32,609 bases of DNA from an uncultured OCS116 cluster bacterium. GTDB lineage: Bacteria > Pseudomonadota > Alphaproteobacteria > Rhizobiales > TMED25. The notes below the pieces were generated by a model. The model did not search any database. It saw only the letters and a program-made list of their open reading frames with translations, and was not told the origin of the DNA. The stretch covers positions 1 to 32,609 of the forward strand of contig CACPAS010000014.1 of assembly GCA_902632055.1 (NCBI GenBank), written 5' to 3'. The position numbers and the translations under genes were made by a program. Numbering within the stretch: position 1 is the stretch's first letter; each line of letters opens with the position of its first letter. This document shows positions 19,964 through 24,891 of the stretch, piece by piece.

Positions 19964-22142
<2,179 letters not shown>

Positions 22143-22193: not shown

Positions 22194-22208
22194 ATGGGTA
22201 AGTATTGA
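22194..22208 (+). other. Four-codon open frame whose stop overlaps the hydratase start
   Basis: ATG GGT AAG TAT TGA, preceded by AAGGA with a 4-base gap, ends in TGATG so that its stop overlaps the hydratase ATG at 22208. The hydratase start has no strong Shine-Dalgarno sequence of its own, so this minigene could deliver ribosomes by re-initiation. It may also be coincidence. Confidence 0.25.
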
Positions 22209-23185
22209 TGACTAATCTTAAAATGGGACCGCATGATGTTGGCGGCGAGAAGTCCATTCCTATCGATGTAAATGATAAGGATATGACTCACTGGGAAAAA
22301 TTTGCAAATGCACTCCGCATTGTGGTCTCGTCGAAACGTATCATAACTTTGGATGAGCTCAGATACCATACAGAAGCCTTAGGCGATAAATATTTTGAGA
22401 TTGGTTATTTCGAAAGAAACTGCTTATCATTACATAATATTTGTATCCAAAAAGGTATTTATAGCCTAGATGATTTTATTAAAATAAGATCAAGAAAGAT
22501 TTCTGAATTCAATGTTCCAATTATTGAACTGCCTGATGTAAAAGACATTGAACACTTGCATAACGGAAAGCCACACAAGCATAGTGAGAAGGACTTCCAA
22601 GAAGATGAAAGTGGTGATGGTCCACCCGATTATTATTTTGATACACTTGCGATCGCTGAAATATTCGTAAGTAAAGGATTGATAACGAATGATGATATTA
22701 CCCTTAAAATTGAACAGTTTGATAACGTTTTCCCAAATAGAGGGAAAGCTGTTGTTGCGAAGGCGTGGCATAATGATTCATTCAAAAAGGAGTTAATACA
22801 TGATGCAAAAGCTGCCATATCTGATATTGGCATAGAGCTGGAGACTTTTGCTGATATTATATGCATGCCGCAAACAGACGAAGTTCATCATATTGTAGTC
22901 TGCACACTATGTTCATGTTATCCACGAACTTTACTTGGTATGCCACCTTCTTGGTACAAATCACGAAGTTACAGATCCCGAGTTGTACACGAACCACGTG
23001 AAGTATTAGCTGAATTTGGTACAATTGTACCTATCAATAAAGAAATCAAGGTTCATGACTCGAATGCCGACATGAGATATTTAATTCTACCACCAAGGCC
23101 TTCGAACACTGAAGGTTTATCCGAAATAGAATTATCAAAACTAGTGGCTCGAGATTACCTCGTTGGGGTAAGATTACCAAAGTAA
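22208..23185 (+). CDS. Fused beta-N/alpha subunit of a cobalt-type nitrile hydratase/thiocyanate hydrolase
   Basis: 325 residues from ATG 22208 (an adjacent TTG at 22205 would add one residue; positions below count that residue). Residues 8-95 match the N-terminal half of the beta subunit: GPHDVGGEKSIPI, THWEKFANAL and ITLDELRYHTEAL, where R53 aligns with the beta Arg that contacts the active-site cysteines in Rhodococcus nitrile hydratase (Arg56 there); GPHDVGGE...PI is particularly like thiocyanate hydrolase beta. A His-rich linker (HLHNGKPHKH, 117-126) follows. Residues 145-326 are a full alpha/gamma subunit: VFPNRGKAVVAKAW, VVCTLCSCYPR with metal ligands C233, C236, C238 (CTLC indicates the cobalt type), WYKSRSYRSRVV, PREVLAEFG, RYLILPPRPSNTEGLSE and ARDYLVGV. 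The reaction is hydration of a nitrile to an amide, or of thiocyanate to carbonyl sulfide and ammonia; sequence does not decide which. Confidence 0.88.
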   Translation: MTNLKMGPHDVGGEKSIPIDVNDKDMTHWEKFANALRIVVSSKRIITLDELRYHTEALGDKYFEIGYFERNCLSLHNICIQKGIYSLDDFIKIRSRKISEFNVPIIELPDVKDIEHLHNGKPHKHSEKDFQEDESGDGPPDYYFDTLAIAEIFVSKGLITNDDITLKIEQFDNVFPNRGKAVVAKAWHNDSFKKELIHDAKAAISDIGIELETFADIICMPQTDEVHHIVVCTLCSCYPRTLLGMPPSWYKSRSYRSRVVHEPREVLAEFGTIVPINKEIKVHDSNADMRYLILPPRPSNTEGLSEIELSKLVARDYLVGVRLPK

Positions 23186-23190
23186 TAGTT

Positions 23191-23475
23191 ATGGATACAA
23201 AATTCAAAATAAATGATGAAATAATCGTAGATATGAGGTCTTCGACTGGGCACTGCAGGACACCAGCATACATAAGAGGAAAAAAGGGTGTTGTTGAAAG
23301 AATTTGTGGCCAATACCCAAATCCAGAAGAGATCGCACTGTGCAAATCCAATCCAGAAATAATAACTCTATATAGATGCCGTTTTAAACAGGTGGATGTG
23401 TGGGATAATTATTCTGGTAAAGTTTCCGATACAATTGAACTTGAAATATATGAACACTGGCTTAAGAATGCATAG
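23191..23475 (+). CDS. Detached C-terminal SH3-like domain of the nitrile hydratase beta subunit (thiocyanate hydrolase alpha-like)
   Basis: 94 residues, starting 5 bases after the previous stop. FKINDEIIVDM opens the SH3-like barrel; SSTGHCRTPAYIRGKKGVVERICGQYPNPEE matches the beta-subunit block GHxRxPxYxRGKxGxI, and LYRCRFKQVDVWDNYSG with DTIELEIYEHWLKNA matches its end (Y-x-V-x-F-x-x-x-x-LW, then V-x-L-x-E-x-YL). R23 in GHCRTP aligns with the second beta arginine (Arg141 in Rhodococcus sp. N771 nitrile hydratase), which hydrogen-bonds to the oxidised cysteine. The domain matches only the second half of beta; the first half is fused to the alpha subunit in the preceding gene. It is presumably an essential part of the same enzyme. 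Confidence 0.82.
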   Translation: MDTKFKINDEIIVDMRSSTGHCRTPAYIRGKKGVVERICGQYPNPEEIALCKSNPEIITLYRCRFKQVDVWDNYSGKVSDTIELEIYEHWLKNA

Positions 23476-23487
23476 ATCGGTATATAA

Positions 23488-23997
23488 ATGATTGCTGGAA
23501 TTAGCAGAATTGGGCATATTGGCATCCGCGTAACAAACATAAAACGATCGTTAGATTTTTATAAGAATATTTTGGGCTTTAAGCTTACGGCATACTGGGA
23601 AGATAATAAGCAGTGCTTCGTTAGAATTGATGATATGCATCACGATATTGTATTCTTTGAGATTGATGAAAGCATAGATCGAAAAGATATAGATCAGACA
23701 GATACAGCAAAGAGGCCGAATACTGGTTTAGACCACATAGCCTTTGAAATTAAAGAACGTCAAGACTGGTTAAATGCAATTGAAACAATGAAATCAAATG
23801 GTATCAAATTTGTTGTCCCACCATGCGTTCATGCTTACGAGTCTGGCTTTTTCACAGAAGATGAAGCAAAGTTTTATGGAGGTGCAGGATCTCACTCTTT
23901 TTATATCACGGATCCAGATGGCAATAGATTGGAGTTCTTTTGGGGCTCAATGAAAGTAACGAAAGTATCACTTGCCGCCCCTAACCCTGAATTTTGA
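23488..23997 (+). CDS. VOC family protein (glyoxalase/extradiol dioxygenase-like)
   Basis: 169 residues with two beta-alpha-beta-beta-beta units. RIGHIGIRVTNIKRSLDFYKNILGFKLTAYW opens the first (metal His in GHIGI), GLDHIAFEIKERQDW opens the second (His in DHIAF), and HSFYITDPDGNRLEFFWG closes it with the metal Glu (LEFF). The spacing fits a two-His-one-Glu divalent metal site; DPDGNRLE is common to glyoxalases and catechol-2,3-dioxygenase-like enzymes. A long insert (VPPCVHAYESGFFTEDEAKF) precedes the last strand. The substrate is unknown. Placement 12 bases after the hydratase domain suggests that it acts on the same compound or on the hydratase product. Confidence 0.83.
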   Translation: MIAGISRIGHIGIRVTNIKRSLDFYKNILGFKLTAYWEDNKQCFVRIDDMHHDIVFFEIDESIDRKDIDQTDTAKRPNTGLDHIAFEIKERQDWLNAIETMKSNGIKFVVPPCVHAYESGFFTEDEAKFYGGAGSHSFYITDPDGNRLEFFWGSMKVTKVSLAAPNPEF

Positions 23998-24024: not shown

Positions 24025-24891
24025 TTGCAGAACCTTCGTGGTAGTATATTTATGATACTTGCGATGTTTGCGTTTACAGTCGAAGATTTTACATTAAAGA
24101 TAGCAACCCAATTTATACCACTCGGTGAGTTACTTTTATTATGTGGTATCATCGGTAGTATATTTTTTATGTTTTGCTCGAAACTAAAAAAAGAGCCGAT
24201 ACTACACAAGAACTCATTTAGCAAGATATTAATTATTAGATCGATATTTGAGACAATGGGGCGTGTGTTTTACGCATTAGCAATTATGTATATTCCAATC
24301 ACTAATGCTGCTTCCATTCATCAAGTTACCCCAATAGTTGTTGTACTTGGGGCAGTTTACTTTCTTAAAGAAAAAGTCAGTTGGGGCCGTTGGATTGCAA
24401 TTTTATCTGGGTTTATTGGCGTTCTGATAATAATTCAACCAGGAACGAGTGATTTTAGCATATTTTCACTATTTGCTGTTCTAGGTGTAATTGGATTTGC
24501 TGGACGAGATCTTGCAACTCGAATGAGTCCAACTGGTATCTCAAATTATCAATTGGGAAGCTATGGTTTTTTTATGGTTATATTAGCAGGATTATTATTA
24601 ATCATCTTCAATTCAATATTCATACCATCCAGCAAGATATGGGTTGATCTAAACTTTGTCGCATGGATATTTATCCTAGCAAATGCAATTGCTGGAATAT
24701 GTGCCTACTTTTGCCTCACAATCGCTATGCGCGTTGGCGATGTATCATTTGTAACACCATTTAGGTATATTCGTGTCCTGTTTGCCCTTTCATTTGGAAT
24801 TCTATTACTTGGTGAACAGCCTAATATTTTGGTGCTAGGTGGCAGTTTGATCGTTGTATTATCAGGTATTTATATTCTAATTAAGAAATGA
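24025..24891 (+). CDS. EamA/DMT family transporter
   Basis: 288 residues with about ten membrane helices in two repeats, the standard drug/metabolite transporter layout. RSIFETMGRVFYALAIMYIPITNAASIHQVTPIVVVLGAVYFLKEKVSWGRW is a typical EamA block (end of the first repeat), and SFVTPFRYIRVLFALSFGILLLGEQPN is its second-repeat equivalent. The start is taken as TTG 24025 because GGGAG stands 7 bases upstream and MQNLRGSIFMILAMFAF leads straight into helix 1. Transported compound unknown; as the last gene of the hydratase series it may move the enzyme's substrate or product. Its stop is 2 bases from the stop of the convergent ybaK-like gene. Confidence 0.88.
   Translation: MQNLRGSIFMILAMFAFTVEDFTLKIATQFIPLGELLLLCGIIGSIFFMFCSKLKKEPILHKNSFSKILIIRSIFETMGRVFYALAIMYIPITNAASIHQVTPIVVVLGAVYFLKEKVSWGRWIAILSGFIGVLIIIQPGTSDFSIFSLFAVLGVIGFAGRDLATRMSPTGISNYQLGSYGFFMVILAGLLLIIFNSIFIPSSKIWVDLNFVAWIFILANAIAGICAYFCLTIAMRVGDVSFVTPFRYIRVLFALSFGILLLGEQPNILVLGGSLIVVLSGIYILIKK

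Follow-up and report, generated by a model that had tools for sequence, protein, structure and literature searches.

The window analysed here, a stretch of 32,609 nucleotides from an uncultured OCS116 cluster bacterium, probably encodes a two-chain Co-type nitrile hydratase (NHase) derived from the three-subunit kind represented by ScNHase (AnhD-AnhE-AnhA), with the beta-N chaperone fused in cis to the alpha subunit. The N-terminal half of beta precedes a complete alpha subunit in one protein, and the C-terminal half of beta is a separate gene product. This layout was proposed for positions 22208-23475 in a sequence-only reading, and both the open reading frames and the Pfam domains agree with it. 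The observations underlying the assignment are the domain content, the conservation of the fusion and of its beta-C gene, the metal motif, both catalytic arginines, the lack of a detectable activator paralogue, and purifying selection.

Gene Organization, Domains, and Catalytic Residues

The window makes up one contig of a genome of 1.03 Mb (77% complete). Named relatives of this genome are an OCS116-cluster bacterium and metagenome-assembled genomes (MAGs) assigned to Rhodobiaceae/Hyphomicrobiales. The fusion gene starts with ATG at 22208 and stops with TAA at 23183-23185, and only five bases separate it from the beta-C gene (Table 1). An in-frame TTG is present at 22205, one codon 5' of the ATG. 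The gene of the VOC/glyoxalase superfamily that follows is probably on the same transcript as the fusion and beta-C genes. The five closest members of the genus have it next to beta-C; in the remaining genus loci it was not found there. Upstream, a divergent katG-like catalase-peroxidase gene (19964-22096, named by sequence inspection) is located next to the fusion, and this neighbourhood is retained in the genus genomes looked at.

Table 1. Features of the fusion locus in the window
Feature	Position	Strand	Evidence
Fusion gene (beta-N, His linker, alpha), 325 aa	22208..23185	+	ORF; orthologues
beta-N domain, residues 5-96, full-length with HDxGG arm	22220..22495	+	PF21006; TIGR03888 beta match, no TIGR03889 match
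R52, catalytic Arg of beta-N, equivalent to PtNHase betaR52	22361..22363	+	Invariant in all aligned loci
Linker, residues 97-140	22496..22627	+	Alignment, column by column
Four-His element H116xH118[DN]GxxH123xH125, predicted beta-hairpin	22553..22582	+	Alignment; model strands 115-118, 121-124
alpha-subunit domain, residues 141-325	22628..23182	+	PF02979; Foldseek to Co-type NHase alpha
Metal motif C232-T-L-C235-S-C237	22901..22918	+	Sequence and alignments
R240: Trp in classical NHases (PtNHase alphaW116), Arg in thiocyanate hydrolase (gammaR136)	22925..22927	+	Alignment
Separate beta-C gene, 94 aa	23191..23475	+	PF02211, E 4.6e-17; adjacent in all OCS116-family loci
R23 of beta-C (GHCR), second catalytic Arg	23257..23259	+	Conserved in all aligned beta-C
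VOC/glyoxalase-superfamily gene, 12 bp 3' of beta-C	23488..23997	+	PF00903, E 4.6e-20
EamA-type metabolite transporter, 27 bp 3' of VOC gene	24025..24891	+	PF00892, E 2.8e-24

The Pfam search matched NHase_beta_N (PF21006) to fusion residues 7-96 (E 2.4e-10), NHase_alpha (PF02979) to residues 147-321 (E 4.9e-66), and NHase_beta_C (PF02211) to residues 3-92 of the 94-residue protein (E 4.6e-17). Every match exceeded its gathering cut-off, and no beta-C domain was found within the 325-residue fusion protein. The position of the beta split and the order of the domains are therefore as first described. The metal motif is of the Co type, with Thr at its second position, and CTLCSC, R52, and R240 are invariant among the fusions aligned. 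According to the sequence-only reading, the motif was intact, which holds, with residue numbers (C233, C236, and C238) that proved one too high. The same reading assigned two arginines to different chains; both are conserved across all relatives aligned, R23 under the number given and R53 as R52. The locus thus possesses what characterizes the Co-type nitrile hydratase superfamily, namely CTLCSC in alpha and a beta-N and a beta-C domain each carrying a catalytic Arg, and the conserved pair presumably forms a working two-chain enzyme, as had been suggested. A betaR52A mutant of PtNHase is available as PDB 9d65, and betaR52A and betaR157A NHase mutants are both present in the PDB; by analogy, R52 of the fusion and R23 of beta-C would be positioned at the metal cysteines.

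An earlier structure model of the fusion, built from 13 close sequences, was poor (pLDDT 58.6), and the model from an alignment of 73 sequences reached a pLDDT of 89.2 and a pTM of 0.79. Its alpha part resembles the alpha chains of Co-type NHases (Foldseek TMt 0.84-0.88) and the gamma subunit of thiocyanate hydrolase (SCNase; TMt 0.76-0.80). For the N part, the matches are NHase beta chains, with a VIA Z of ~8-9, a range that is potentially unspecific for helical domains, so that the PF21006 sequence match is the stronger evidence for this part. Confidence in the packing of beta-N against alpha has to be discounted, because the alignment put the back half of beta-N on alpha columns. In the MAFFT alignment, this back half falls on helices at the N terminus of alpha (YYERW...LLxEKG against ...LLIEKG), which hints that beta-N and alpha share an old internal homology.

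The two domains are joined by a His-rich linker, as had been noticed, although the joining element is a condensed form of the His-rich tail that alpha ordinarily carries at its N terminus. A His-rich N-tail was seen in the alignment on nearly all alpha subunits as well as on SCNase gamma, which rules out the linker as a new insertion. In alpha subunits generally this tail mostly consists of low-complexity His runs, whereas the element in the OCS116 linker is short and fixed, with HxH[DN]GxxHxH kept in 12 of the 12 OCS116-family proteins aligned. The hairpin prediction for this element is of moderate confidence. The four histidines may bind cobalt, making the element a candidate metal site.

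Conservation and Distribution of the Fusion

Whole-genome searches recovered the uninterrupted fusion from 11 of the 12 genomes of the genus and from both genomes of the sister genus, all of them marine Alphaproteobacteria related to OCS116. These OCS116-family fusions are 65-87% identical to the one in the window, and each is directly followed by beta-C. They come from MAGs and also from the separate record AG-349-L15, and the sole genus genome without the fusion (G004) is 93% complete. A sequencing or assembly error (the sequence-only reading had named a sequencing-error fusion as a possible refutation) was rejected as the source of the fusion, since no stops occur in it across 13 genomes of two genera. 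The fusion is under purifying selection, with a dN/dS of 0.048 over its whole length between the window and L006, the only pair with unsaturated synonymous sites; these sites are saturated in most other fusion pairs.

Among 397 genomes of the order, fusions were present only in the OCS116 family (13 genomes), in G044 (two), and in G717 (one). No further fusion was found in the families of G044 and G717, nor among the matches listed for 398 genomes drawn across the phylum. A plasmid matching most of the fusion query turned out to be unfused, and no relatives were found on viral contigs.

The distant relative G044 carries its two fusions on contigs other than that of a lone beta-C gene (L067, G044:C59:3496-3846), which has no alpha or beta-N nearby and is flanked by a PLP enzyme of Cys/Met metabolism and an EamA transporter. 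This beta-C is probably the partner of both G044 fusions. In G717 (L125, 3482-7173), an EamA gene, the fusion, and an amidase gene overlap one another in one operon with beta-C divergent from it, and this operon is the clearest pathway context among the fusions. EamA genes therefore adjoin the G044 beta-C and the G717 fusion as well as being found in the window. A close kinship between the G044 and the window EamA was not supported, and because their similarity is only fragmentary, the recurrent neighbourhood may be a coincidence.

Relationship to Three-Chain Enzymes

Three-chain enzymes are common, with the gene orders bN-bC-alpha and bC-alpha-bN in many genomes, besides the classical alpha-beta layout and a few loci of alpha-bN-bC. 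The gene order of scnB-scnA-scnC is likewise bN-bC-alpha, and a split beta also occurs in toyocamycin NHase. These two enzymes were the three-chain cases named in the sequence-only reading, which missed the widespread three-chain enzymes, ScNHase, and the eukaryotic fusions.

The residue following CTLCSCYP separates these enzymes. Of 35 classical or alpha-bN-bC enzymes, 34 have Trp and one has Phe; 25 of 25 bN-bC-alpha and bC-alpha-bN enzymes have Arg or Lys, and the 16 fusions all carry Arg, as does SCNase. This position was probed earlier, in the SCNase mutant R136W (PDB 3vyg) and the NHase mutant alphaW116R (PDB 3vyh). At the position just ahead of the catalytic Arg in beta (residue 90 in SCNase), three-chain enzymes usually have Lys, Leu, or Met, and the OCS116 fusions have Leu.

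The tree built from alpha only (75 rows) gathers the classical NHases in a single clade (100/99) and leaves the fusions, the three-chain enzymes, and the SCNases outside it. A tree of beta-N, alpha, and beta-C together (59 rows) likewise recovered the classical clade (100/100); it unites the OCS116 and G044 fusions (100/99), places G717 with unfused bN-bC-alpha enzymes (99/97), and groups true SCNases with bC-alpha-bN enzymes (99/98). Lying outside the classical clade and carrying Arg, not Trp, the window enzyme is not a classical two-subunit Co-NHase. G717 stands apart from the remaining fusions in both trees, and its grouping with unfused enzymes points to two fusion events, so that two origins are probable, while an AU test on alpha alone did not reject a single origin (p 0.161).

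The loci L019-L022, L092-L113, and L121-L124 represent a large set of Arg/Lys-type three-chain relatives of NHase, whose plasmid members carry no annotation beyond 'nitrile hydratase' or 'SH3-like domain-containing protein'. On Planktothrix and Streptomyces plasmids, the three-chain genes are located beside asparagine synthase, or beside an aquaporin and a Ni/Co transporter. A further locus, L048 in G255, is a classical-type cluster with one alpha, a full beta, and additionally split beta-N and beta-C genes.

Possible Substrates

Scored against NCBI's curated family models, the window alpha reaches 215.6 bits with NHase alpha (TIGR01323, cut-off 249.85) and 172.9 bits with SCNase gamma (TIGR03887, cut-off 291.45), both below the respective cut-off. 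The NHase score exceeds the SCNase score for the fusions tested, and with TIGR01323 the G044 fusion (247.6) remains below the cut-off and the G717 fusion (256.2) passes it. The real SCNase L123, used as a control, gave 211.3 bits with the NHase model and 359.2 bits with the SCNase model. The usual partner of a nitrile hydratase is an amidase, which directly follows the G717 fusion; OCS116-family genomes have 3-5 amidase-family genes each, some of them presumably encoding tRNA amidotransferase, and none was found to adjoin the fusion. From the model scores, the G717 score above the cut-off, and the G717 amidase, nitrile hydration appears the likeliest reaction. Against it stand the score of the window protein, which falls short of the NHase alpha cut-off, and the Arg following CTLCSCYP, the residue found there in SCNase.

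The last point, together with a beta split as in ScnB/ScnA, is what would speak for a rearranged thiocyanate hydrolase producing COS and ammonia from thiocyanate, and the sequence-only reading had considered the enzyme closer to SCNase than to ordinary NHase. The split and the Arg are indeed shared; the overall closeness is not borne out, as the NHase score is the higher one and the SCNases are on another branch of the three-domain tree, with the bC-alpha-bN enzymes. Residue 90 of SCNase helps to select thiocyanate. Of the two SCNase arginines, the fusion has the equivalent of gammaR136 (R240), but Leu51 replaces Arg90 before the beta catalytic Arg (alignment to 2dd4_B). With an amidase in the G717 operon as well, thiocyanate hydrolysis is improbable and was dropped as the first choice on the model scores, the tree, and Leu51. 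Another small cyano or isocyano compound (e.g., cyanamide, an isonitrile, or a cyano amino acid) might be the substrate if the Arg/Lys-type three-chain family has a substrate and chemistry of its own, which would suit the sharp division at the residue after CTLCSCYP, the place of these enzymes outside the classical clade in both trees, and the EamA and PLP-enzyme neighbours of some relatives. However, the OCS116 genomic context indicates no particular substrate, and ScNHase, built from the same three parts, uses acetamiprid as a substrate (PMC7329996), leaving such a special substrate unlikely compared with nitrile hydration.

Proposed Maturation without a Separate Activator

Most classical Co-NHases require an activator that is homologous to beta-N. 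The OCS116-family genomes tested that carry the fusion each contain a single beta-N domain and a single beta-C domain, and the domain search detected no separate activator-type paralogue in near-complete OCS116-family genomes. The same search did detect a separate activator-like gene in G044, which was confirmed by the activator model TIGR03889 (E 1e-20). The cobalt transporter family CbtA was found in 7 of 8 genomes.

Because of this homology and the missing activator gene, the N domain could be imagined as an activator of the P14K/NhlE type fused to alpha instead of half a beta subunit. This is very unlikely: both the HDxGG arm and the catalytic Arg are present in the domain, which spans the whole beta-N model, whereas activators mostly match that model from position 13-24 on. 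TIGR03889, which hits the true activator in G044, does not match the N domain at E 0.01, whereas the beta model TIGR03888 does, and on this result the activator was ruled out. Moreover, no second beta-N that would complete the enzyme was found in these genomes.

The preferred reading, half a beta fused to alpha, suggests how the enzyme might mature. The Streptomyces canus enzyme ScNHase (AnhD-AnhE-AnhA) is a proven nitrile hydratase without an activator, in which the beta-N protein AnhD is a metal and subunit-swapping chaperone that forms AnhD2A with alpha (PMC7329996). Since AnhD is itself the chaperone of alpha there, the fusion looks like a permanently joined AnhD-AnhA. With beta-N fused in front of alpha and beta-C remaining a separate protein, the two chains would assemble so that R52 of the fusion and R23 of beta-C contact the two oxidised cysteines, and Co(III) would be held by C232, C235, and C237. 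The beta-N domain, perhaps aided by the four-His element, may load cobalt in cis and so replace a trans-acting activator, and the mature enzyme would hydrate a nitrile to the amide, in a pocket probably less hydrophobic than that of classical enzymes given Arg in place of Trp.

A fully self-maturing nitrile hydratase, in which the fused chaperone and a built-in cobalt-loading site at the four-His element of the linker replace both the trans-acting activator and self-subunit swapping, is a tentative extension of this scheme. The chaperone role would be carried over from a single published study, on a distantly related enzyme. As the ScNHase maturation complex contains two beta-N per alpha, a 1:1 fusion would need a second fusion molecule to copy it, and the OCS116 bacteria may use a non-homologous activator, or an activator gene may lie in the few per cent of the genomes that are missing from the assemblies. 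If true, a self-maturing enzyme would be a bacterial counterpart, composed of different domains, of the His-linked fusions in eukaryotes.

Comparison with Known Systems

Classical Co-type NHases (PDB 1ire, 3qxe) share the fold, CTLCSC, and the two catalytic arginines with the OCS116 enzyme, but they consist of two intact subunits with an activator, have Trp in place of Arg, and form a strongly supported separate clade. SCNase (ScnB-ScnA-ScnC, PDB 2dd4) shares the split beta, the Arg after CTLCSCYP, and the His-rich gamma tail; it differs in its three chains and in an Arg before the beta-N catalytic Arg, where OCS116 has Leu, and OCS116 is on a separate branch. Fusions of Monosiga brevicollis and other eukaryotes also have beta before alpha with a His-rich join (PMC2603476, PMC3323583), yet they contain a whole beta, whereas the OCS116 fusion is without the beta-C half, which is encoded separately.

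A survey in 2012 found beta-alpha fusions in eukaryotes only and none in prokaryotes (PMC3323583). Bacterial fusions with half a beta, which probably arose twice, are therefore relevant to the question of how fused nitrile hydratases originate. The open-access literature searched contained no account of such a half-beta fusion, in line with the new subunit arrangement claimed by the sequence-only reading. Fused nitrile hydratases have been engineered (PMC4709657), and for industry the OCS116 fusion is a natural counterpart of these hand-built enzymes. This work also outlines a large Arg/Lys-type three-chain group that public annotation names only partly.

The known enzyme closest in kind is ScNHase, which shares a beta split into N and C chains, a complete alpha, and the lack of an activator gene (PMC7329996); it has three separate chains in the order bN-bC-alpha, whereas in OCS116 bN and alpha are fused and bC follows. 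How cobalt enters nitrile hydratases is disputed between activator, direct insertion, and self-subunit swapping (PMC7193024, PMC7329996), and a natural enzyme in which the chaperone-like domain stays attached to alpha would allow a direct test of whether swapping is needed.
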